Position numbers and translations under genes: made by a program. Of a stretch of 64,000 nucleotides of DNA, positions 1,129 through 56,914 are shown piece by piece. The first letter of the stretch is position 1; every line of letters starts with the position of its first letter. The notes below the pieces were generated by a model. That model made no database searches. It was not told the origin of the DNA and saw nothing but the letters and a program-made list of their open reading frames with translations. The DNA comes from Candidatus Hodarchaeota archaeon (lineage in GTDB: Archaea > Asgardarchaeota > Heimdallarchaeia > Hodarchaeales > Hodarchaeaceae): contig JAEOSR010000137.1 in assembly GCA_016840285.1 (NCBI GenBank), positions 1 through 64,000 of the forward strand. Direction: 5' to 3'.

Positions 1129-1466
1129 TATCATACCAGTCCAAGAGGGAGATTCTCTCAAAGGATCAATGAGAAATATCATTTTTTTGAACCCATGAAC
1201 TCCTTAAATCTTTTCTGCTTTTAAGGAATAAAACGAAATGGGAACTTTTATGAAAGACTCTACTATCCTTAAGAGTAAATTTGATAGAACCTCCTCTTAA
1301 TTCTCGACAAGAATTTTTATGATCTTAAGAAGCATAATTACTGAATGTGAAATATTTTTCTTAGGAATACAAAAATCCTTAAATCATTACATCTTTGATA
1401 ATATATCCGTGAGGTATGACTTGTTTATAGTGATTATGCTTTGAAAACGATAGAAAGGGATCGAAC

Positions 1467-2411
1467 TTGAACAAATGTATTATCACTCAACTGAAACTTA
1501 AAATTATACAAGTTTTTTCGAAAAATCGTGGTGTATCTCCTGTTCTAGCGACAGTTATAATATTTGGTTTAATTATCACAGGCGTCATGATCACATTCGT
1601 TCAAGTTGTCCCGTATATCCAACAAGCTCAGAGTGAACAGGCGATAGCGACAACTCGTAATAGTTTCTTAGAGCTGGATACAACAATTAAATCTGTAATA
1701 AGTGAAAGCGGCGCTCCTGGAGGTTTTCGGACAGTCCTCTTTAATAAACCTGCTGGACGCATAGAATATGACCCAGAGCGTTATCTTTATGGATTAAGGT
1801 TACTTGATCAAGATGAAAACCTTGTCTTCAACATACTAGAGGAAACAACAAATGAAACTACGGGCGGATTTCTACCAATCGGAGTATTAGACTGGATTTA
1901 TAATAGCCCTCGAGCCGTTGTTCCCCGTGGAACCACGAAATATTTAACTGGACCTGACCCCTATAAAATTCGTGAACCTATATTCCTGACTGGTACTTTT
2001 ACCTTAACTGAATATCAAGATCTAACTAACTTAACTCTAAGCCATCTTGATGATAGAAGACACCACGTGACCCTGAACTATCGAATATCCATTTATTTAA
2101 CAATTTCAACACAACCAGATCCTGAAATATGCTTTGAGGTCTTTCTAATCCTCTTATCGGCAGATTTTGAATTTATTCGAAACCAATTTCAACATCTCAC
2201 AATTCATTCTTATAATAGGTTTTCCACTCCATATATTTTACCAGAAAACGACTCAATTGGAGCTATAGAATTAGTGTGGGATAATTTTCAACCATCAGGA
2301 ATAACTACTACATCCCTTTGGAGTACACATACTATTCAAGGGTTTGATCTACAATACTTCGATATTGTGGTACAAACAATGGTTTATGAAGTAGGACTTT
2401 CTACATCTTAA
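1467..2411 (+). CDS. Type IV pilin-like protein, class III signal peptide
   Basis: Surface pilin or archaellin-like subunit. Near the N-terminus a basic stretch is followed by NRGVSPVLATVIIFGLIITG, the typical archaeal prepilin signal (cleavage after the Gly, conserved hydrophobic helix for filament assembly). About 270 residues of beta-rich, Thr/Asn-rich extracellular domain follow, with several possible N-glycosylation sequons (for example NLTL, NETT). Start is TTG at 1467. It opens a run of same-strand genes reaching 12.7 kb. It would be processed by a prepilin peptidase such as the one at 57.1 kb. Which filament it builds (archaellum or adhesive pilus) cannot be told. Confidence 0.75.
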   Translation: MNKCIITQLKLKIIQVFSKNRGVSPVLATVIIFGLIITGVMITFVQVVPYIQQAQSEQAIATTRNSFLELDTTIKSVISESGAPGGFRTVLFNKPAGRIEYDPERYLYGLRLLDQDENLVFNILEETTNETTGGFLPIGVLDWIYNSPRAVVPRGTTKYLTGPDPYKIREPIFLTGTFTLTEYQDLTNLTLSHLDDRRHHVTLNYRISIYLTISTQPDPEICFEVFLILLSADFEFIRNQFQHLTIHSYNRFSTPYILPENDSIGAIELVWDNFQPSGITTTSLWSTHTIQGFDLQYFDIVVQTMVYEVGLSTS

Positions 2412-26839: not shown

Positions 26840-27352
26840 TTATCCTTCTAGGTCATCGTCTTTTGTGTATCTTTTTTGAATTATTTTCTTTGTTCTAATT
26901 TCTTCAGACTTTCTATAATAGTAATCAGAAGACCGTTTAGGGCCAAAACTTCGTATACCTGAAGTTTTGATTTTTTCTGTTAGCTCTTTTCCTGTTTCCA
27001 CTGAAAGTTGGCCTTGCTTGGTTAAAAAGTCAATGATCTCTAGACCTTCTTCATTAGTTCGTGCTCTAGCTAAGAAATCAAAAATATTTGGCTCATAATT
27101 GCTAAAAGGATCCAAATCTTGTCTTTCGTTCTTCCATGGGGAAATAGAATTCGTTTCATCTTCAACTTCATCTATCCTCACACTCATTTCACTACTGACA
27201 AGCTCGATGTATAAAGCAGGGAATTTTTCCCGGATTTCATCGATTGATATGTTCTGTTTGATAGCAAATGTCTCTAAAGAAGATTTCTTCTGTGGCTTCT
27301 TTTTGGAATCTTCAGGGTATTTTTCTACCATCGATATGCTTCCGAATTTCAT
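26840..27352 (-). CDS. Conserved archaeal protein, DUF2095-like
   Basis: 170 residues. The segment from about residue 38 (IREKFPALYIELVSSEMSVR ... FDFLARARTNEEGLEIIDFL ... GIRSFGPKRSSDYYY) recalls the uncharacterised archaeal family DUF2095; I judge this from memory of the pattern, so moderate confidence. ATG overlaps the stop of the dehydrogenase gene (ATGA), so the two are translationally coupled. Function unknown. A later ATG at 27331 is possible. Confidence 0.6.
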   Translation of the reverse strand: MKFGSISMVEKYPEDSKKKPQKKSSLETFAIKQNISIDEIREKFPALYIELVSSEMSVRIDEVEDETNSISPWKNERQDLDPFSNYEPNIFDFLARARTNEEGLEIIDFLTKQGQLSVETGKELTEKIKTSGIRSFGPKRSSDYYYRKSEEIRTKKIIQKRYTKDDDLEG

Positions 27353-28296
27353 TCTAACTTGGTAGCATTAACGGAGAATTCAGGTTTTTGACCATTAAGT
27401 ACTAATTTGACCTGTTGAGCTGTTATATGACCTGCTCTTTCTTGTGCTTCTTTTGTTGAGGCGCTTATATGAGGAGAGACGTAAACATTCTCCAGTTCAA
27501 ACAATTTGTTATTTTTCACAGGTTCAACAGTAAAGACATCGAGCGCTGCTCCCGCTATCTTTTTGTCTTTTAATGCATTATAGAGGGCATCTTCGTCAAT
27601 AATACCGCCCCGTGCACAATTTATGATAAATGCAGTTGGCTTCATTTGCTCCAACTCCTTCTTACTGATCATACCACGAGTTTCATCAGTTAACAATGCA
27701 TGAATTGTGACAAAATCAGACCTCTGCAGTATAAGTTTAAGATCTTCTATTTTTTCCGCTCCAATCTTATGAAAAACTTCATCAGGAAGATATGGGTCAT
27801 AGACCAAACATTTCAACCCAAAAACTTTCGCTCTTTTCACAACCTCGGCTCCGATTCTCCCACAACCAACAAATCCTAATGTTTTACCGAATAATTCCAT
27901 CCCCATAAGCTGTTTTTTTGGCCATTCACCCTTCTTAGTTCTACTGGAAGCTTGGATAATTTTTCGACTCAGAGCGAGGATAAATGCTATTGTCATTTCC
28001 GCAACAGATATTGTAGAAGCACGAGGGGAGTTTACAACATATATCCCTCGTTCTGTGGCAGCCTTCACATCAATGTTATCGACCCCAATACCAGCTCTAC
28101 CAATCACTTTCAGTTGGGTGCCCTTTTCGATGACTTCCTTTGGTAGCTTGGTAGCACTCCGGACAATTATCGCGTGATATTTACCTATTTCGTTTAATAA
28201 ATCAGCTGGGGGGTAGTGGTGATCTATTACTTCGAACTCTTTTTTCAATTCCACAATTGCAGAAGCTGCAATCGAATCTGCTATTAAGATTTTCAT
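27349..28296 (-). CDS. serA: D-3-phosphoglycerate dehydrogenase-like (SerA family, no ACT domain), copy 1
   Basis: 315 residues; oxidises 3-phosphoglycerate in serine synthesis, or a related 2-hydroxyacid. Rossmann motif GCGRIGAEV with the NAD-selecting Asp (VYDPY), catalytic Arg in NCARGGIIDE, Glu in DVFTVEP and His in VSPHISAS. It lacks the C-terminal regulatory domains of long PGDHs. Very similar to the copy at 31.4-32.3 kb, which lies in opposite orientation. Coupled to the DUF2095-like gene by a 4-nt overlap. Confidence 0.88.
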   Translation of the reverse strand: MKILIADSIAASAIVELKKEFEVIDHHYPPADLLNEIGKYHAIIVRSATKLPKEVIEKGTQLKVIGRAGIGVDNIDVKAATERGIYVVNSPRASTISVAEMTIAFILALSRKIIQASSRTKKGEWPKKQLMGMELFGKTLGFVGCGRIGAEVVKRAKVFGLKCLVYDPYLPDEVFHKIGAEKIEDLKLILQRSDFVTIHALLTDETRGMISKKELEQMKPTAFIINCARGGIIDEDALYNALKDKKIAGAALDVFTVEPVKNNKLFELENVYVSPHISASTKEAQERAGHITAQQVKLVLNGQKPEFSVNATKLE

Positions 28297-31360: not shown

Positions 31361-32311
31361 ATGAAAATTTTGGTAACTGATCCAATAGCCCCTTCTGCAA
31401 TAACAGAATTACAGAAAGAGTTTGAGGTAACGGAACAACACTACTCCCCCGCTGAACTATTAACGGAAATAGGTAAATATCATGCGATAATTGTCCGCAG
31501 TGCGACCAAGCTTCCACGGGAGGCCATCGAGAAAGGTACCCAGCTAAAAGTGATTGGCCGAGCGGGAATTGGCGTCGATAACATTGATGTCAAAGCAGCT
31601 ACAGAAAGAGGTATCCTAGTTGTGAACGCGCCACGATCTTCCGTTATTTCTGTGGCAGAACTGACATTAACATACATGCTTGCTCTCAGCTGTCGTTTAG
31701 TCAATGTAACAAATGAAACTAAATCAAATATGAATCCGAAAAAATGGTTAAGGCGGACAGAATTGCATGATAAAATATTAGGGTGTATAGGATGTGGAAA
31801 AATTGGTATTGAAGTAATTACAAGAGCAAAGGTTTTCGGGATGAAATGTCTGATTTACTCCCCTAACGTTCCTCCTGAAGTCACTGAAAAAATGGGAGTG
31901 GAAAGAACTGATGATCTTGATTATCTACTTCAAGTATCGGATTTTGTTACAATTCATACTAAATTAAAAATAGAGACTCAAAGTTTGATTAGTAGACGAG
32001 AATTAGAACTCATGAAATCAACAGCTTACCTAATAAACTGTGCCCGAGGAGGTATTGTAGACGAACACGCCCTTTATGATGCTTTGAAAGAAAACAAGAT
32101 CGCGGGAGCAGCGCTCGATGTGTTTGCTGACGAACCTGTACGAAATAACAAATTATTTGAACTGGAGAATATCTATGTCTCCCCCCACATTGGAGCCTCC
32201 ACCACTGAAGCTCAAGAACGAGTTGGACAAGTTATTGCTAACCAGATTAAAATGGCTTTAAACGGTCAAACACCTGACTTCATTGTTGAAAAATCCTATT
32301 TTCCGAATTGA
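31361..32311 (+). CDS. D-3-phosphoglycerate dehydrogenase-like, copy 2, altered cofactor site
   Basis: 316 residues. Same family as the minus-strand copy; the first 100 residues are nearly identical between the two. Catalytic Arg (NCARGGIVDE), Glu (DVFADEP) and His (VSPHIGAS) are kept, as is GCGKIG. The residue after the second Rossmann strand is Ser (IYSPN) where copy 1 has Asp (VYDPY); loss of that Asp often goes with NADP use or changed cofactor binding. The middle region (WLRRTELHDKILGCIG) is also diverged. Probably a neofunctionalised paralogue. Confidence 0.85.
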   Translation: MKILVTDPIAPSAITELQKEFEVTEQHYSPAELLTEIGKYHAIIVRSATKLPREAIEKGTQLKVIGRAGIGVDNIDVKAATERGILVVNAPRSSVISVAELTLTYMLALSCRLVNVTNETKSNMNPKKWLRRTELHDKILGCIGCGKIGIEVITRAKVFGMKCLIYSPNVPPEVTEKMGVERTDDLDYLLQVSDFVTIHTKLKIETQSLISRRELELMKSTAYLINCARGGIVDEHALYDALKENKIAGAALDVFADEPVRNNKLFELENIYVSPHIGASTTEAQERVGQVIANQIKMALNGQTPDFIVEKSYFPN

Positions 32312-45009: not shown

Positions 45010-45621
45010 TTACTTTTCTTTATGTTGAATATAGCTAGCAATTTCCTGATGCTTGAAAGAATCTGTCCCTGGTTCACGAACAACTTGGTAAAATTTGAAA
45101 GCTGCAAGGCCATTCATGTCGATCTTGGTAGGTTCAACTACAAGTGCAACAGAAAGGGTATTATGGAGCTGAAAAGAGAAAATATGAGTGTTTACATCCG
45201 TTTGAGATAGAAATAAACCATAACCTGGGTGAGAATGCCACCATCCCAAGCAATAGTAATCATTCTCCAGTATTTTTTCAAAAACTTTAAAATCTTCATC
45301 GGAAAAAGAAACAGAAACTTCGTCGCCTTCTGCAACAAAAAAAATTTTAGATATCATTAGTTCATTAGGCCGGAGTTCTTTTCCACCTAACAGACCAATA
45401 GCTTCCCTAGGGATAGCATCTTTTGAATATTTGGTCATTTCATGGAGTAATGATCCCAAAATGGTAACTGATTTAACCTGGGGGACTGAAGGAACATGAA
45501 AGTCTTCAGCTTCCCTTATTTTTTCAATTGATTCCTTTTTTGTTGTTTCAACAGCCTCTGTAGTTGGAATTTTGGAATTTTCGGCCTTAGCTCCTTTTGG
45601 TGTTTTTTTATTATCAGACAT
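45010..45621 (-). CDS. JAMM/MPN+ metalloprotease (Rpn11-like deubiquitinase)
   Basis: 203 residues. The JAMM zinc site is complete: Glu73 in PREAIGLLGG, His129-x-His131 in WHSHPG, and Asp142 in SQTD after Ser139. A 40-residue polar, Thr/Lys-rich N-terminal tail precedes the domain. Such Asgard and Thaumarchaeota-related proteins cleave ubiquitin or SAMP conjugates. It is 32 nt downstream of the E2 gene on the same strand, an operon of conjugation and removal. Because the ubiquitin here ends in GG, it is more likely to remove conjugates than to process precursors. Confidence 0.9.
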   Translation of the reverse strand: MSDNKKTPKGAKAENSKIPTTEAVETTKKESIEKIREAEDFHVPSVPQVKSVTILGSLLHEMTKYSKDAIPREAIGLLGGKELRPNELMISKIFFVAEGDEVSVSFSDEDFKVFEKILENDYYCLGWWHSHPGYGLFLSQTDVNTHIFSFQLHNTLSVALVVEPTKIDMNGLAAFKFYQVVREPGTDSFKHQEIASYIQHKEK

Positions 45622-45653
45622 AGACCATTCACAATATTTATATTATTGATCGA

Positions 45654-46196
45654 TCATTTAGCATGCTTTTTGGTCCATTCTTCAGCCGTATCCCAAAAGA
45701 TTTCAAAACTTTTTTTCATAGTCTCTCCAGCTTCAGGGTTAAAAGGATCATTTGGATCAACAAGATATTCTGGAAAATCTACATCCCCTGTTGCCCGATA
45801 AACATCTAACATCATTTCGATATGCTCAAATACACTGGGTAATGTGATTGTTTCCTTCCATCCCCCTGATTTCCCTAGATTATTCCAATTGACAAGACTT
45901 AAGCATACATTAGAGCCCCATTTCCATTGAGTTGTGCCAATTGCAATATTGGGATGCCATATGGGAGTTATAAAGTTGCAAATCGGAGGTTTGAAGGGAT
46001 ATTCTGGGGGGAGATCAACAGTGATCTCAAACTCACCCCCATCATAAGGAGTCTCTTTCCTCCCCTTAATTGTTGCCTTATAGTGGTGTAGATTGTTATT
46101 AACAATAACCCACTTGACATGGCTTGTTTTTGGAGGATAAGTTTTTAGCATTCGTTTAAATTCTTCTCGTAATCGTCTTGAGTGCAAATCCTGCAA
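45654..46196 (-). CDS. E2 ubiquitin-conjugating enzyme
   Basis: 180 residues, UBC fold. N-terminal helix RRLREEFKRMLKTYP, PEYPFKPP, HPN (81-83) and the catalytic Cys98 in SNVCLSLVNW are all present, so it should form a thioester with the ubiquitin at 48.2 kb. C-terminal helices with DVDFPEYLVDPNDPFNP are longer than minimal E2s. Start is TTG (46194-46196). A truncated second copy, 87 percent identical in the shared 70 residues, lies 0.8 kb upstream. Confidence 0.92.
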   Translation of the reverse strand: MQDLHSRRLREEFKRMLKTYPPKTSHVKWVIVNNNLHHYKATIKGRKETPYDGGEFEITVDLPPEYPFKPPICNFITPIWHPNIAIGTTQWKWGSNVCLSLVNWNNLGKSGGWKETITLPSVFEHIEMMLDVYRATGDVDFPEYLVDPNDPFNPEAGETMKKSFEIFWDTAEEWTKKHAK

Positions 46197-46315
46197 GGTA
46201 TTCTCACCTTTTGAATAAAGGTAGATGAATGAAATTAGAACCGATTGATAGAATCATGAGGTGAATACTAATATAATAATTTATATTATAAGTGGCAAGA
46301 TTGAGATTCAATTTC

Positions 46316-46727
46316 TCAGTCTAAATCGTTAGAATTTAACTTATTTTCCTTGTTAGTTGCTAACCATTCTAGATTTTTTAAGTAAAAATCAGTAATGTTC
46401 TTAGAATCCCGAGTAACCGTCTTAAACTTCTTCCATGTCGTAACAGTACTTTTTAAAGGCATACCTCTTAGTTCATAACCCTTAGACATCTTCCAGGTAT
46501 CTTGTATTTGATCAATTATACTTCCATCATCTAAATTACCAATAAAAGGTCTATCTATAATCAGATCTATCTCTTTGGAATTGAAATCTTGGAAAATTTC
46601 GCGAGCTGCTTCAACTCCCTCTCCAAGCCTATCTATCCCATTATGGTTGTCCCAACTAGCAATAATAACAATATGATGTCCATCTATAAGATTATTCTTC
46701 TTAAATTTTGATATTTCGTTTGATTCA
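46316..46727 (-). pseudogene. Headless open frame beside the CRISPR-like repeats
   Basis: About 135 codons from the edge of the first CRISPR-like repeat to TGA at 46316-46318, with no ATG, GTG or TTG in its first 60 codons. The translation includes DGHHIVIIASWDNHNGIDRL, LIIDRPFIGNLDDGSIIDQI and GYELRGMPLKSTVTTWKKF. I do not recognise the family. The clean frame suggests a real gene whose 5' end was lost at the repeat junction. Confidence 0.4.
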
Positions 46728-46912
46728 TTTCAATCCTCACGAAGGAGGAACGCTCCTTTCAACTCGAAGACCAACATTAACTTTTACTTATACGCTAGGA
46801 TTTTAATCCTCTCAAGTGAGGAACTCTTCTTGCAACGAAGCCTATGATGCAGGAACTAATTGTTGGTATGATCAATTTCAATCCTCGCAAGGGAGGAAAC
46901 CTTTTCTGTAAC
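46727..46912 (-). CRISPR. Decayed three-repeat CRISPR array
   Basis: Repeats at 46727-46763 (37 nt), 46800-46836 (37 nt) and 46875-46912 (38 nt) with spacers of 36 and 38 nt. On the minus strand they begin GTTGCAA-like and end GATTGAAAT (one ends GATTAAAAT), the hallmark tail of many archaeal repeats, with an internal CCTC/GAGG stem. The first two are identical at 29 of 37 positions, so the array is degenerate and probably inactive. No cas1/cas2 is nearby; a Cas6-like gene and a RAMP remnant lie 11 kb away. Confidence 0.6.
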
Positions 46913-46940
46913 TTCACCGAAAAATGCTTCTATTCTATTA

Positions 46941-47174
46941 TTAGGGAGGTTTAAAGGGATACTCTGGAGGCAAATCAACTGTGATCTCCCATTCACCCCC
47001 CACATAAGGTGTGTTTGGTTTTCCTTTAATATTCGCTTTATAATGATGAAGGTCATTGTTAACAATAACCCATCTAACAGGGCTTGTTTTCGGTGGATAT
47101 GTCTTCAACATTCGTTTGAACTCTTCTCTAAGCCTTCTAGAGTGTAAATCTTGCACGTTGGTATCATCCTTCAA
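46941..47174 (-). pseudogene. Truncated duplicate of the E2 gene
   Basis: 77 codons. Residues 8-77 match the N-terminal 70 residues of the intact E2 (61 of 70 identical), then the frame stops right after YPFKPP, before HPN and the catalytic Cys. It therefore cannot carry ubiquitin. Downstream sequence is CRISPR-like, so truncation and repeat insertion may be one event. Start is TTG 47174 or GTG 47156. It lies divergently upstream of the UEV-ubiquitin-E1 operon, perhaps the ancestral E2 position. Confidence 0.75.
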
Positions 47175-47377
47175 AGTTTACTGGTCTGTTCTCATTGGTA
47201 ATCAAAATTTAATTTCTTTTAGTGCAAAAGATCACTTATATTTTCTCCACACTTCGCCGATATTTAAAGCTGTGGTTGGTAAGTAGAAGAAATGGTACAA
47301 AATGAGTTACCTTTTTAAGGTCAAGAGACTGACTAATCCTGCACATATTTTCTTCTAATAACGGGTGATCGAAAAAA

Positions 47378-48166
47378 ATGGAAGATACCCAAACTGATGT
47401 TTCCCAATGTAACGGTTGTGGAGCTCCCCTTCATGTTAGACCAACATTCCAACATCCTGTAAAGTGTGAATACTGTGATCTTTCAAATTACTTGAAACGA
47501 ACAGCTATTACACCAACAGAAGCGAAAATGATGGATGAAGCGGAAAAAGCAGAAAGTTACTATTTCATTTATCAGGAATCACAAAAAATACTGGAAAACT
47601 TCCCAGGGGAATTCGTTGGTGATGAAGTAGGCAAATTAAGAATTAAGATGCAAGTCAATGAATATGCTTTCCCTCTTTTAATCGTGTTAGATGATTTACC
47701 TGACCGACCTTATATTGATGGCCCTTCTAAGCTAAGGGAAGTCTTAGATTGTGAAATAAATGATTTGGAAAATATGAAAAACTGGTCACCTGGTTCAAGT
47801 TCAGTTTTAGATGTTTTAGAAGAGATTCATCTGAAAACTGCTGAGCGAATGCCCCAAGTTATGGGAGAACCCGTTTCAGTATCAGAACCCTCTGCTACTC
47901 AAGAAGAACGCGATCCTCTCATACGTCAAATTCTTACTAATTATGACGCATCAGCATCGAAGAAAGAGATTGCTGTAAGATTCTACGCCCAGGATGGCGA
48001 AGTGATAAATTTTACAATTAAGAGAAAAAAGAATCTACCCATAGGTCTCGAAAGTGAAACTCTTACCAAATATCCGCTTATTCGTGGACCTTTAGAAGAT
48101 TATGCGAAAGGAAGAATTGATATTCTTACTACACTCTCAGAAATCGAACGAATGTTTTATACTTAA
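47378..48166 (+). CDS. Zinc-ribbon protein with RWD/UEV-like (inactive E2-like) domains
   Basis: 262 residues. A zinc ribbon (CNGCGAPL ... CEYC, about 11-33) is followed by a segment (about 65-155) with E2/RWD order: LRIKMQVNEYAFPLLIVLDD, then RPYID, then SSSVLDVLEEIH, without a catalytic Cys or HPN. A second, shorter unit (about 180-262) repeats a similar pattern. It probably binds ubiquitin or the E2/E1 rather than catalysing transfer. It is the first gene of the ubiquitin-E1 operon (20 nt before ubiquitin). The fold assignment is inference; an unrelated adaptor is possible. Confidence 0.6.
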   Translation: MEDTQTDVSQCNGCGAPLHVRPTFQHPVKCEYCDLSNYLKRTAITPTEAKMMDEAEKAESYYFIYQESQKILENFPGEFVGDEVGKLRIKMQVNEYAFPLLIVLDDLPDRPYIDGPSKLREVLDCEINDLENMKNWSPGSSSVLDVLEEIHLKTAERMPQVMGEPVSVSEPSATQEERDPLIRQILTNYDASASKKEIAVRFYAQDGEVINFTIKRKKNLPIGLESETLTKYPLIRGPLEDYAKGRIDILTTLSEIERMFYT

Positions 48167-48186
48167 ATTAAGCAGAAGGTGAAAAA

Positions 48187-48507
48187 ATGAGTAAAAAGGA
48201 TGTTGTTTGGGATTCCAGTTCTACAGGGAAAGCTCCTGATAATGGTATTGAGAAAATGATTAAAGTTCGTTTTAAAGATCCACAGCTTCCTCCAGATCAG
48301 AATATTCGGGAAAAATATATTAATATTAATGGGACCGTTTTTCAGGCTATCATTGCGGCTCGTGATGCCTTTAATATACCGGAAGTTGTGCCGATCGCTT
48401 TATTATTTAAGGGAAGAAGAATGAATCCTTCAAATAATCTCTCTTCCTATGGAATAGAGCAAAATGCTATTCTTATGATCGTTCCAGATCAAATTAAAGG
48501 AGGATAA
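48187..48507 (+). CDS. Ubiquitin-like modifier ending in Gly-Gly
   Basis: 106 residues. Beta-grasp fold: MIKVRFKDPQLPP, a helix TVFQAIIAARDAFNI, VPIALLFKGRRMNPSNNLSS and YGIEQNAILMIV. The frame stops directly after DQIKGG, so the conjugation-ready C-terminus needs no processing. About 22 N-terminal residues precede the fold. It lies between the UEV-like gene and the E1 gene in one operon. Sequence identity to eukaryotic ubiquitin is low, but order and ending are clear. Confidence 0.88.
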   Translation: MSKKDVVWDSSSTGKAPDNGIEKMIKVRFKDPQLPPDQNIREKYININGTVFQAIIAARDAFNIPEVVPIALLFKGRRMNPSNNLSSYGIEQNAILMIVPDQIKGG

Positions 48508-48545
48508 TATCCTCTTCTATTAATTTCAAAGGATCATTTCATGCT

Positions 48546-49778
48546 ATGACCCGAGATCTTCCTTCTTCTTCTAAATATGACAGACAGGAACGATTAGCTC
48601 TTTGGGATCAACATATTATAGAAAATAGTGCGATTTTAGTGGCAGGTGTGGGAGGGACTGGTAGTGAACTGGTTAAAAACTTGGCTTTATTAGGTATTGG
48701 TAGCCTTATTCTAGTCGATGATGATACAATCGAATATTCGAATTTAAATCGCCAAATGTTATTCAAGGAGGAAGACGTAGGGCAGAAGAAGGCAAAAATT
48801 GCCAAAAAAAGGATTCAAAAACAATTTAATCCTGATATTAAAATCAAACAATACTCAAACAAATTACAAAATATACCTCAAAAGATTTTTCAGAAGGTAG
48901 ACATCATTGCTGGCTGTGTAGATAACTATTTGGCACGACAATATCTCAATGCGATGGCAATTGAACTGAAGATTCCTTTGATTGATTCAGCAACGGATGG
49001 GTATTTTGGTCAAATTCAGTATATAAAACCAAGAATAACAGCTTGTTTGGCTTGTGAAACGCATCCACCACCAGATGAGACTCGAGTATTGACAGCTCCG
49101 TGTACTTTAGTAGGAGTTCCTCGTGTGAGGGAACATTGTGCTTGGAAAGCTCTTTATGAATTCAATGCAAAACATGAGAGGGAGCCAGTAGAAACCTCGC
49201 CTGAAGATATTACAGAGCTAACAAAATTTGCGAATAGTTGTACTAAAGAACATAATTTCGGACAATTCAATAAAAAAGAGCTTCTGCAATTAATTCTTTT
49301 TCATGTACCCAGTTTGATCACTGTTAACGCGGTAATAAGTGGAATACAATCGCAAGAAATAGTGAAATCTCTTTTTTTAGAGAAAAAAGAGTTTTTAAAA
49401 GAATCAGAGCGAACAACACTGAATAATTTACTGAAAGCTCAGAGATTTCGGATTCCACATTTTTCTGTTTATTCAGCTTTAACAGGAACTATAAATACAT
49501 TCGATCTGGTTCCCGATCCAAGTTGTTTGGTATGTGGCCAATCTAATTCCACAAAACATAGTGGACAAACTATAGTTGTAGATCGTAAAGCACTTTTTGG
49601 ATCTATTCTTGACACAATCCGCCAGGAACATAAAAAAGATTATATCGGATTCCGAGGAAATTTCCTCCTACCTGAAGATGAAACCATCCAAAAGATCCTT
49701 TCTGATGGTGACAGGATAACTCTCAGTTCTGTAGATGAGGAGGAGGAGATTAGGTTGCAATTAATATTCCGAGATTAA
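48546..49778 (+). CDS. E1 ubiquitin-activating enzyme
   Basis: 410 residues. Adenylation domain with GVGGTGSE (about 33), LVDDDTIEYSNLNRQ and DNYLARQYLN; zinc ligands CLAC (about 165-168) and CLVC (about 331-334). The putative catalytic Cys186 lies in APCTLVGVPRVREHC, the CT(I/L)xxxP...HC pattern of eukaryotic E1 subunits rather than bacterial ThiF/MoeB. The last 75 residues look like a beta-grasp ubiquitin-fold domain that would recruit the E2. ATG 48546. It follows the ubiquitin gene by 38 nt. Confidence 0.92.
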   Translation: MTRDLPSSSKYDRQERLALWDQHIIENSAILVAGVGGTGSELVKNLALLGIGSLILVDDDTIEYSNLNRQMLFKEEDVGQKKAKIAKKRIQKQFNPDIKIKQYSNKLQNIPQKIFQKVDIIAGCVDNYLARQYLNAMAIELKIPLIDSATDGYFGQIQYIKPRITACLACETHPPPDETRVLTAPCTLVGVPRVREHCAWKALYEFNAKHEREPVETSPEDITELTKFANSCTKEHNFGQFNKKELLQLILFHVPSLITVNAVISGIQSQEIVKSLFLEKKEFLKESERTTLNNLLKAQRFRIPHFSVYSALTGTINTFDLVPDPSCLVCGQSNSTKHSGQTIVVDRKALFGSILDTIRQEHKKDYIGFRGNFLLPEDETIQKILSDGDRITLSSVDEEEEIRLQLIFRD

Positions 49779-49791
49779 AAGGAGAAAAAAA

Positions 49792-50106
49792 TTACTCTTT
49801 GAAAAACAGTCGGATCTTGTCTCTTCTTTTTGGGATTATTGGATTGATTTTCGGGTTAATATATGGTTCTTTGAAACCATGATCGGTGGGTTGATCATAA
49901 GTCAACCTGTCATAAAGGCTAGTGGTTATTCGGTCTCGTGATTTGGGAGTGGTTGTAGGTTTTTTGTAGAATTTCCGAGTAGCTCGTGGGCGGTGTTGGG
50001 AAATAACCGTGCGTTTTCCACACTTAGGGCAATACCAACTTCCAGAAATGGGGAGATCTCGCGGAATATACCCACAGTTTGTACACTTAATTTCTTTCTG
50101 AGCCAA
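49792..50106 (-). CDS. Small zinc-ribbon protein in the ubiquitin cluster
   Basis: 104 residues. KCTNCGYIPRDL ... YCPKCGKR gives four Cys, a zinc ribbon rather than an eight-ligand RING, so it is not a small RING finger E3. A basic, Arg/Lys-rich tail follows. It lies on the opposite strand between E1 and the UFL1-like gene, and its function is unknown. Confidence 0.6.
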   Translation of the reverse strand: MAQKEIKCTNCGYIPRDLPISGSWYCPKCGKRTVISQHRPRATRKFYKKPTTTPKSRDRITTSLYDRLTYDQPTDHGFKEPYINPKINPIIPKRRDKIRLFFKE

Positions 50107-50250
50107 TATAATGATTCCTCACGTCATTTTCACAATTTTTCTACTCTGCAAGAGAGTAAAGAATATATAAAAATACATTTCTAATTTTCAATAAGAGGAC
50201 AAATATTCCATGCTATTATATTCTTTCAGCAAGAGATTTGAGTGAGATTA

Positions 50251-52002
50251 ATGTTCGGGAGAAAGAGACATAAATGGTTGACAGAAGCTCAAATGGCACA
50301 GATTCCTATCAAATTGCGTGAAATGGCCCCAAAAGAAAATCCAAGTGATGTTGCTTCATTCCTGCGGACAAAAATTGGTTCAAAGGAACTGAATGGCTTT
50401 GTCAGTTTTGATGACAAGAAATTTATCCCTACTATCTTCCTTCAACAATATATAGCTCGTGAATTAACAAAGGGTTATGTAGACATCTGTGATGTTATTG
50501 ACAATACAAATTTACCAGGTGAGTTGTTAGAAACCCAGATTAGCATGAATGCGCAGAATTTTGATGGTTTTTTTGATCTTATCCATCGTAAGTTTTTCAC
50601 ACTCCAAGGAGCTAAAACTGAAGTTAAACAGATTTTAAGCAGTACTACCTCCTTAGACTTAAAATTTCTTTTAAACAAACTTTATTGGACTGAGGATCAC
50701 CTCGAAGGCATCATAGAACTTCTAGCCAAAGATGGTCAATTCATTGGATACATTGATCCCATAAGTCAGCGAATACACAATTTTACTGATTTAAACTTCT
50801 CTTCCTCCTCAGGTCTACAGAGAAATATAAAGAGACTTAATCGCTATATAAATACCAGTTTTTTATTGGAATCAGAAGTTTCACTTAATCACATCAGTAA
50901 ATTGACACGACTATCTAAAGAAGAATGTCTTGAACTCCTGGAAAAAAACCGTGAAGAACTTAAAATTATCTTTTCAGCCAATTATGAATATTTATATCCT
51001 ACTATGGACATAATAAACCAAGTATTAAAAGATGTATTCGTCTACAGAGAAATTCCAATTGAATTTTGGCTTCAACGACTTGATGTAGACAGGGCTGAAT
51101 TTTTCAATATACTCCAAATTCTAAATCAAAGTTTGAAAGGAACCTTGAATGACGTTGAATTCAAAGCTCCATCTTTAAGAGAATGGTTTGAAAATGGAAT
51201 TGGAGTTGAAGATTTAGCTTCTTCATTAAATCTAGACCCATTGAATCTCTTAAATCGACTTCACAAGTTGGCACGACTCTTTGGACTCCGAATTATCGCT
51301 GGAGAAACCGCTGATCCATTTTTAGTTAAAGGTGTAAAACACTTTGAGGTTTTTTGCCAGGTGGATACTTCTTCGTATACTGATCCTCATTTATATTTCG
51401 AATGTCAAAACTGTAGACGGATAATGTGCTCAAATTGCCGTTCCATAGGAAGCACACATGTATGTCCATTTTGTGGAAACATCTCAGCGTTTATTATTGA
51501 TCTCCCGAGGCATTGCTCCCAATGTATGGTTAATTACACTCATTCATATAATTTACTCGATGCTGAGGAATGTCATTTTTGTAAAAAAGGTCCTTTAAAG
51601 TTAGGATGGACTGAATACGAACTCCCTTATTCAAAAAAACCTGAATCCGATTCAGTTCTTTTTGAGTTCCTTGAGCAAACTTCTAAAGCGGAAATCCCCC
51701 TCCGAGAAATCTTTTCTTTATTGAATCGGTCTGATAGTGAGACAATAACCTTAATAGAAGACCATATTCTTCATGGAACGATTCAAGGCTGGATTTCCAT
51801 TCAAAAAATGATCTTACGATTAGAAAAACAAAAAGAAGAGTTTCTCTGTGGTGTCTGTGAACTCCCCCACGAAGATTCTACAAGATATTCATGCGCATCC
51901 TGTAGTACAAAAGTCTGTACAGACTGTTTCAAAGAAATTAGCTCTGTAGGAATGATATTCTGCCCCGCATGTGGCGGAAATCTTGAACAGGAAACTCAAT
52001 AA
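50251..52002 (+). CDS. Winged-helix protein with UFL1-like N-terminal half and RING-like C-terminus (candidate E3)
   Basis: 583 residues. About residues 45-145 follow the UFL1 pattern: FIPTIFLQQYIARELTKGYV, D(I/V)xxxI, then NLPGELLETQI and repeated winged-helix units up to about 370. Next is a Cys-rich zone (CQNC...CSNC...CPFC, then CSQC...CHFC, about 385-445). The end (about 533-575) has eight cysteines, C-x2-C-x11-C-x2-C-x4-C-x2-C-x11-C-x2-C, a RING-type cross-brace spacing. The location after ubiquitin and E1 supports an E3 role. ATG 50251 (MFGRKRH) is preferred to GTG 50242. Assignment is by motif reading. Confidence 0.65.
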   Translation: MFGRKRHKWLTEAQMAQIPIKLREMAPKENPSDVASFLRTKIGSKELNGFVSFDDKKFIPTIFLQQYIARELTKGYVDICDVIDNTNLPGELLETQISMNAQNFDGFFDLIHRKFFTLQGAKTEVKQILSSTTSLDLKFLLNKLYWTEDHLEGIIELLAKDGQFIGYIDPISQRIHNFTDLNFSSSSGLQRNIKRLNRYINTSFLLESEVSLNHISKLTRLSKEECLELLEKNREELKIIFSANYEYLYPTMDIINQVLKDVFVYREIPIEFWLQRLDVDRAEFFNILQILNQSLKGTLNDVEFKAPSLREWFENGIGVEDLASSLNLDPLNLLNRLHKLARLFGLRIIAGETADPFLVKGVKHFEVFCQVDTSSYTDPHLYFECQNCRRIMCSNCRSIGSTHVCPFCGNISAFIIDLPRHCSQCMVNYTHSYNLLDAEECHFCKKGPLKLGWTEYELPYSKKPESDSVLFEFLEQTSKAEIPLREIFSLLNRSDSETITLIEDHILHGTIQGWISIQKMILRLEKQKEEFLCGVCELPHEDSTRYSCASCSTKVCTDCFKEISSVGMIFCPACGGNLEQETQ

Positions 52003-56776: not shown

Positions 56777-56914
56777 AGCCACTGGCGCGAATTTCATGAA
56801 AACTCTCTCGAAAGTATTCATTTTGAACGCGCGACATCCTCCTTTCTGTTTCTCAATCAATTGATGAATGAGAATTACCAAGGAGGCGCTATAACCTAGC
56901 TAAGCCACAGTGGC
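56777..56914 (-). tRNA. tRNA-Thr(GGT) with two introns (anticodon loop and T-loop)
   Basis: Folds as a complete tRNA once two inserts are removed. Acceptor GCCACTG (from 56914) pairs with CAGTGGC (66-72) with U73, which archaeal tRNA-Thr uses. The D-arm is GCTT..TAGC, the anticodon stem CCTCC/GGAGG with loop TTGGTAA gives anticodon GGT, and the T-stem is GCGCG/CGCGC with loop TTCAAA-T. Inserts: about 32 nt (56875-56844) at the standard 37/38 site and about 31 nt (56821-56791) within the T-loop at about 59/60. The first insert has an inverted repeat TTCTCA/TGAGAA and the second ATGAA/TTCAT. All stems are perfect but for one D-stem mismatch. Splice points are estimates. Confidence 0.88.

Follow-up and report, generated by a model that had tools for sequence, protein, structure and literature searches.

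Two predicted bulge-helix-bulge introns, one of them in the T-loop, in a Hodarchaeales tRNA-Thr(GGU) gene, and the recurrence of such T-loop introns in Asgard archaea

In the Crenarchaeota, notably the Thermoproteales, tRNA genes have been described that carry several introns apiece, including non-canonical bulge-helix-bulge (BHB) introns at positions such as 59/60 (outlined in PMC4090602, which attributes them to Sugahara 2007/2008 and Fujishima 2010), and as many as three introns are recorded for a single archaeal tRNA gene (as stated in PMC8450103). Among Asgard archaea, the main text of a report on Atabeyarchaeia and Freyarchaeia describes multiple and often non-canonical tRNA introns, 228 of them in three genomes (PMC11291895). 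A loop lysine of the splicing endonuclease (EndA), together with the residues that follow it, has been tied to cleavage and to a broad substrate range by two papers whose main texts treat that loop as crenarchaeal and do not contain the word Asgard (PMC6379350, PMC12397907). The two-gene form of the Asgard enzyme may already have been described, since a further study, as far as its cited text goes, identified and classified EndA in its archaeal genomes (PMC12918454). Within the open-licence literature of PMC, no paper was found that treats T-loop introns in Hodarchaeales or Heimdall archaea, or that describes the loop for EndA of Asgards.

The window considered here is a stretch of 64,000 nucleotides from a Hodarchaeales contig, and it contains a 138-nt gene for pre-tRNA-Thr(GGU) with two introns (Table 1). 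The initial annotation had proposed a tRNA-Thr(GGT) on the minus strand with inserts of approximately 32 nt at 37/38 and approximately 31 nt in the T-loop, and this proposal was confirmed to the base, the tabulated coordinates being exact at that resolution. It had also held that all four stems form once both inserts are removed: the acceptor (7/7), anticodon (5/5, CCTCC/GGAGG) and T stems (5/5) are indeed complete, but the D stem retains just three standard pairs (GCU/AGC). The spliced product is 75 nt long and is called as tRNA-Thr(ggt) by ARAGORN, and its T-loop matches that of the intronless orthologues, so that removal by rule at both sites yields a functional-looking tRNA. From the unspliced gene, ARAGORN made no call in the window under default or ordinary intron settings (a lowered score threshold returned 534 calls, which is noise), and Rfam gave no match in the window at gathering scores. 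The expectation that a standard finder would miss the gene thus held for these two programs, but tRNAscan-SE 2.0 might catch it, since its archaeal mode seeks non-canonical introns (as described in PMC8450103). A scan of both strands of the 64 kb for a T arm and acceptor stem, with introns allowed, found no second locus.

Table 1. Features of the tRNA-Thr(GGU) gene, by position in the window
Feature	Positions	Strand	Basis or remark
pre-tRNA-Thr(GGU) gene, 138 nt	56777..56914	-	sequence reading; orthologues in L001-L011 and L045
acceptor stem, 5' strand GCCACTG	56908..56914	-	7/7 pairs with 56784-56778
D arm GCTTAGCTAGGTTATAGC, intron-free in the window gene	56888..56905	-	D-loop intron in 11/13 orthologues
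anticodon GGT (GGU)	56877..56879	-	sequence reading
intron 1, 32 nt, position 37/38, between A37 and A38	56844..56875	-	absent in L008
T stem, 5' strand GCGCG	56828..56832	-	5/5 pairs with 56789-56785
intron 2, 31 nt, T-loop 59/60, between A59 and U60	56791..56821	-	canonical BHB
T stem, 3' strand CGCGC	56785..56789	-	pairs with GCGCG
acceptor stem, 3' strand CAGTGGC, and discriminator T73	56777..56784	-	pairs with GCCACTG

The BHB fold whose absence from the T-loop had been named in advance as refuting evidence is present there in canonical form. The T-loop intron constitutes an exact 3-4-3 motif stacked on the T stem, with a central helix of four base pairs (UUCA, positions 54-57, with UGAA at the intron end), a 5' bulge AAA, a 3' bulge AUU, and an intron helix UGAA/UUCA; cuts between the second and third nucleotides of each bulge leave UUCAAA joined to U, which is the T-loop of five intron-free orthologues. 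When the exon side was held fixed and the remainder of the T-loop segment was shuffled, the same in-register canonical motif arose in 20 of 20,000 trials. The insert at 37/38, which had likewise been thought compatible with a BHB motif, proved so in a slightly relaxed form, its central helix consisting of three standard pairs (U32U33G34/CAG) and a G35-A apposition; by visual layout, its intron helix is UUCUCA/UGAGAA and its 3' bulge AAA, divided after the second A.

Thermodynamic modelling is lukewarm on the T-loop motif. RNAfold placed the whole precursor at a minimum of -53.3, as against -45.4 when constrained to the motif, and in the minimum fold three stems (acceptor, anticodon and T) and the hairpin of each intron are formed, with the short central helices absent. 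In the T arm taken by itself, the motif (-13.8) costs 1.8 kcal/mol relative to the minimum (-15.6), in which a symmetric internal loop takes its place. Across 66 other T-loop introns of Asgard tRNAs, the full central helix appears in the minimum fold of 26, and the median gap is 0.3.

The reading preferred here, to which a probability of about 0.94 is assigned, is that of a working gene for tRNA-Thr(GGU), probably the sole GGU gene of its genome, whose precursor with two BHB introns would be spliced to the 75-nt tRNA. Its elements were established by sequence comparison, namely the motif, the intronless orthologues, the covariation of the stems and of R57 with its partner Y, the recurrence of the intron class in many Asgard tRNAs, and the presence, in most relatives, of RtcB and a pair of EndA genes; from these we infer transcription, cleavage, ligation, the sequence in which the introns leave, and which enzymes act in the window organism. 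The gene would be transcribed with both introns, the endonuclease would cut at both sites, 37/38 and 59/60, two nucleotides into each 3-nt bulge, and the exons would be joined, most likely by RtcB, to give a standard tRNA. In the predicted T-loop motif the loop itself would supply the exon half, with U54 U55 C56 R57 paired to YGAA, A58 and A59 lying in one bulge ahead of the 5' cut and U60 in the other behind the 3' cut. Since that exon half is the near-universal T-loop, a short intron ending in YGAAAU should fit almost any tRNA.

Orthologues were gathered as 11 loci reached through relatives of the neighbouring eIF2-alpha gene, each with a tRNA-Thr nearby (on the opposite strand in L008), and a twelfth, L045 of genome G012, found with a tRNA core pattern on a contig too short to show neighbouring genes. 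An orthologue was thus present in 12 of the 12 family genomes examined, which makes 13 genes with that of the window. A D-loop intron is missing only from the window gene and L005, and the 37/38 intron is found in 12 of the 13. The T-loop intron occupies eight (the window, L003, L004, L006, L007, L009, L010 and L011) and is absent from L001, L002, L005, L008 and L045; seven orthologues carry all three introns together. Because the 13 genes differ in their intron sets, intronless relatives display the spliced product, and the varied combinations of three intron sites amount to a natural experiment on the gain and loss of tRNA introns. By hand count on a tree of four neighbouring proteins, with G012 left out, the T-loop intron requires at least four changes. 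Six of the seven other genes that contain it have the motif in the identical 4-bp form; the seventh, L003, has UUCA/UGAA with a weak intron helix, and its central helix is given as 3 bp by the motif finder. In G001, the nearest relative for which a genome was available, tRNA-Thr has no T-loop intron.

These comparisons bear most directly on the principal rival reading, in which the locus would be a decayed tRNA-Thr pseudogene with an insertion in its T-loop. That the BHB motif is not the lowest-energy fold in the window gene fits such decay, as does the occurrence in L004 of broken-looking tRNA-Thr copies beside an intact one. A decaying copy, however, is hard to reconcile with exon stems that are all intact and that covary across the insert: the 5' strand of the T stem takes four forms among the 13 orthologues (GCGCG, GTGGG, GCGAG and GGGGG, two of which co-occur with the T-loop intron), and the 3' strand always matches, 5/5. 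Nor does it fit an insert that recurs at the same site in eight of the 13 genes with the same YGAAAUU end, or the finding of exactly one perfect core match in each of the 12 genomes. Two further near-matches to the core turned up, one in G004, where the tRNA has the anticodon GGC, and one in G011 (to which L004 belongs), where the copy is decayed. The initial annotation had named a second intact tRNA-Thr(GGU) as potential evidence against the locus; none was found in the 12 relatives with the core pattern at up to three mismatches, a search that a gene with a very different body would escape. The pseudogene reading is accordingly given a very small probability, and the working gene remains preferred.

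Introns of the same kind were sought elsewhere in the family with the pattern GTTCRAA-N12-40-YGAADTYC, run against a reversed pattern as control, and the 12 genomes yielded 206 matches as against 110 for the reversed form. An intron helix of at least four pairs adjoining the bulges was present in 34 of 204 rows, compared with 4.7 expected from shuffling. Forty regions, most of them picked for such a helix, were fetched; at 31 of the 41 matched sites within them at least four of the five T-stem pairs form, and 29 family sites were complete tRNAs with a T-loop intron (L142 is cut by a contig end, and L179 is doubtful). The isotypes include Ser, Asn, Pro, Arg, Lys, Glu, Gln, Gly and Phe, the calls for L151, L155, L159 and L169 not being trusted. 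In G007, neighbouring tRNA-Arg genes (TCT and CCT, at L166) have T-loop introns that differ at one of 30 bases, and in G004 the introns of two tRNA genes (L159, L160) differ at one of 29. Near-identical introns in different tRNA genes point to copying between those genes, and in these two genomes suggest that introns were copied, or genes converted, recently. The Rfam tRNA model RF00005 matched 21-37 times per genome in the 12 genomes, with only 150 candidates scored in 11 of them.

At greater distances the same class was again encountered. A looser pattern matched 53 of 58 genomes of the class Heimdallarchaeia, often barely above its reversed control; in four of these from outside the family, 20 of the 33 rows listed were chosen by visible pairing, and all 20 regions fetched were complete tRNAs whose T-loop introns measure 18 to 33 nt. 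Across the phylum, a strict pattern that clears away most of this background gave 177 matches as against 13 for its reverse, and matched 100 of 227 Asgard genomes; it admits some chance matches (L273, for example) and is blind to T stems lacking G52-C62, a type that includes those of the window and of the G011 tRNA-Thr, and neither G001 nor G011, among others, was matched. Twenty rows from genomes outside the class, picked among the matches listed, comprised 18 complete tRNAs with a 5/5 T stem and an acceptor stem, one with a 4/5 T stem (L262), and one that is not a tRNA (L273). The initial view that T-loop introns are rare and known mainly from Thermoproteota was sound as to their occurrence in Crenarchaeota, but overestimated their rarity, since the class recurs across Asgard genomes. 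By eye, an apparent tRNA-Gln (TTG) with a 59/60 intron was also seen in five genomes (L268-L272, in G117, G120, G128, G129 and G140), where both strands of the intron helix have changed, which suggests long vertical persistence.

The 66 confirmed T-loop introns mentioned above come from the regions fetched in the family, the class and the phylum, which were selected in part for an intron helix, though not for the pair between R57 and Y, and some of them are orthologous to one another and hence not independent. In this set the R57-Y pair is A-U in 37, G-C in 27 and G-U in two; A-C, expected 15.1 times were the two positions independent, does not occur. These introns also bear upon a second rival, according to which the T-loop insert would be retained in the mature RNA as an expanded T arm. 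Inserts of 18-36 nt at 59/60 in many tRNAs vary in sequence and keep the motif constant, that motif is one whose standard cuts restore a normal T-loop, and the insert is wholly absent from five of the 13 orthologues. Retention is therefore judged even less probable than decay, and removal of the insert from a working precursor is again favored.

When set beside the described systems, the window gene is a genuine, well-supported tRNA gene with two introns, of an already known type. It and its Asgard counterparts resemble the crenarchaeal introns, as these are presented in PMC4090602, in the 59/60 position, the BHB motif, the presence of several introns per gene, and the near-alike introns found in different tRNAs; they differ from that account in their Asgard host, in a BHB that is mostly canonical 3-4-3, and in a common YGAAAU 3' end, although that end was required by the search pattern. 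With the text cited from PMC11291895 they share Asgard tRNAs that have several introns, often at non-canonical positions, and the present comparison differs from it in treating other Asgard classes, exact positions, presence and absence among relatives, and the type of EndA. Three aspects go beyond the ordinary, as judged from these genomes: how often the T-loop class occurs among Asgards, how neatly it fits the universal T-loop, and the conservation of the EndA loop.

The initial annotation had held that a T-loop intron implies an endonuclease with relaxed substrate choice. That implication does not follow as stated, because the T-loop BHB is canonical; the enzyme itself was examined, along with RtcB and the uniqueness of the gene, in relatives of the window organism. 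The EndA family (PF01974) was found in 226 of 227 Asgard genomes, many of which are fragmentary assemblies: 187 have two genes, two have three, and 37 have one, so that 189 of the 227 have two or more. In Hodarchaeales, the shorter protein contains the catalytic Tyr, His and Lys. The best solved relative of the catalytic subunit at L012 is that of Aeropyrum pernix (3P1Z, E 2.4e-43), in an alignment that spans the crenarchaea-specific loop, and the loop lysine is there followed by P-K. The lysine is present in all 44 catalytic loci sampled from 44 Asgard genomes, and is followed by P-K or P-R in 41, with P-N, A-N and I-K once each; this sample leans to typical sequences, since 30 of the 44 were best-scoring family hits. 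For the longer protein, a motif search picked 11 loci (10 distinct genes), and by eye none of them has the catalytic His. Judged by these residues, the EndA of Asgard relatives does bear features linked to broad specificity. The pair thus resembles the crenarchaeal (alpha-beta)2 enzyme, with a catalytic subunit that has the loop lysine and Tyr/His/Lys and a second subunit without the His, and differs from it in being found in Asgard archaea.

Within the family, two PF01974 genes are present in 11 of 12 genomes, and RtcB in 11 of 12. In the exception to the former (G003, CP070760), searches by family and with a second-subunit protein found no second EndA gene, and the single gene is of the catalytic type; despite this, its tRNA-Thr has three introns, and other tRNAs of the same genome have T-loop introns. 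In the exception to the latter (G002), no RtcB was found in the 1.4 Mb available. Both may be gaps, given a run of N in L003 and the small size of G002.

Asgard archaea are thought to be the closest archaeal group to eukaryotes, in which a heteromeric endonuclease excises tRNA introns that lie for the most part at 37/38. A broader reading, which is offered tentatively and is somewhat less probable than its converse, would hold that the 59/60 introns form an Asgard-wide class, cleaved by a loop-bearing, two-subunit EndA, which spreads among tRNA genes because the universal T-loop provides the exon half of a canonical BHB, and that this system was inherited by the archaeal ancestor of eukaryotes. 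If so, (i) the 'crenarchaea-specific' EndA loop would be common to Asgard archaea; (ii) multi-intron tRNAs and a heteromeric EndA, loop-bearing and broad in specificity, would have been present in the archaeal ancestor of eukaryotes; and (iii) the TSEN complex would have narrowed from a broad state, rather than breadth having been gained independently. The occurrence across Asgards of T-loop introns and of a loop-bearing pair of endonuclease genes renders the origin of eukaryotic tRNA splicing testable on real sequences. One proposal (put forward in PMC10307638) makes the Hodarchaeales sister to eukaryotes, a placement that is disputed (in the abstract of PMC12395588). In a more practical vein, some finders overlook genes of this kind, so that Asgard tRNA sets can appear incomplete.

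The history of the window gene itself may differ from that of its neighbors. Beyond the tRNA lie a Gins51-like gene (PF22090), a gene that we take to be S27e, eIF2-alpha, and one that we take to be Nop10-like, in an order kept in all 11 related loci; the eIF2-alpha, 1 kb downstream, is 95% identical to a protein named 'Candidatus Hodarchaeales archaeon'. A tree of four neighbouring proteins groups the window with L001 (bootstrap 100), whose tRNA-Thr is interrupted in the D-loop but not in the T-loop and has GTGGG as its T stem. The best match of the window tRNA is instead L004 (88% over 126 nt), with which it has in common the GCGCG T stem and the T-loop intron (T-loop content identity 0.87), as well as 133 nt of upstream flank at 81%. 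An assembly or chimera artefact in the metagenome-derived contig, for which the closeness of gene and upstream flank to L004 rather than to the sister L001 might be cited, is the least credible of the alternatives, since the flanking protein genes, on either side, go with L001, and in independent assemblies a gene of this kind lies close to the same neighbors. For a genuine, working gene, the simplest reading is a plausible replacement of the tRNA gene through recombination with a relative; retention of an old allele may be an alternative to such horizontal replacement.

Several further observations were made by the way. In L004 (G011), two broken-looking tRNA-Thr copies were seen by eye near the intact three-intron gene, at approximately 1419-1549 (+) and 1782-1746 (-), and the stretch between them resembles the upstream flank of the window gene. 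Elsewhere in the window, positions 45010-52002 hold a ubiquitin-type cluster with an E2-like gene (PF00179), a JAB protease (PF01398) and a ThiF/E1-like gene (PF00899), together with a weak match to a PCI domain (PF01399), and two 2-hydroxyacid dehydrogenases (PF02826/PF00389) lie on opposite strands about 3 kb apart, at 27349-28296 (-) and 31361-32311 (+).
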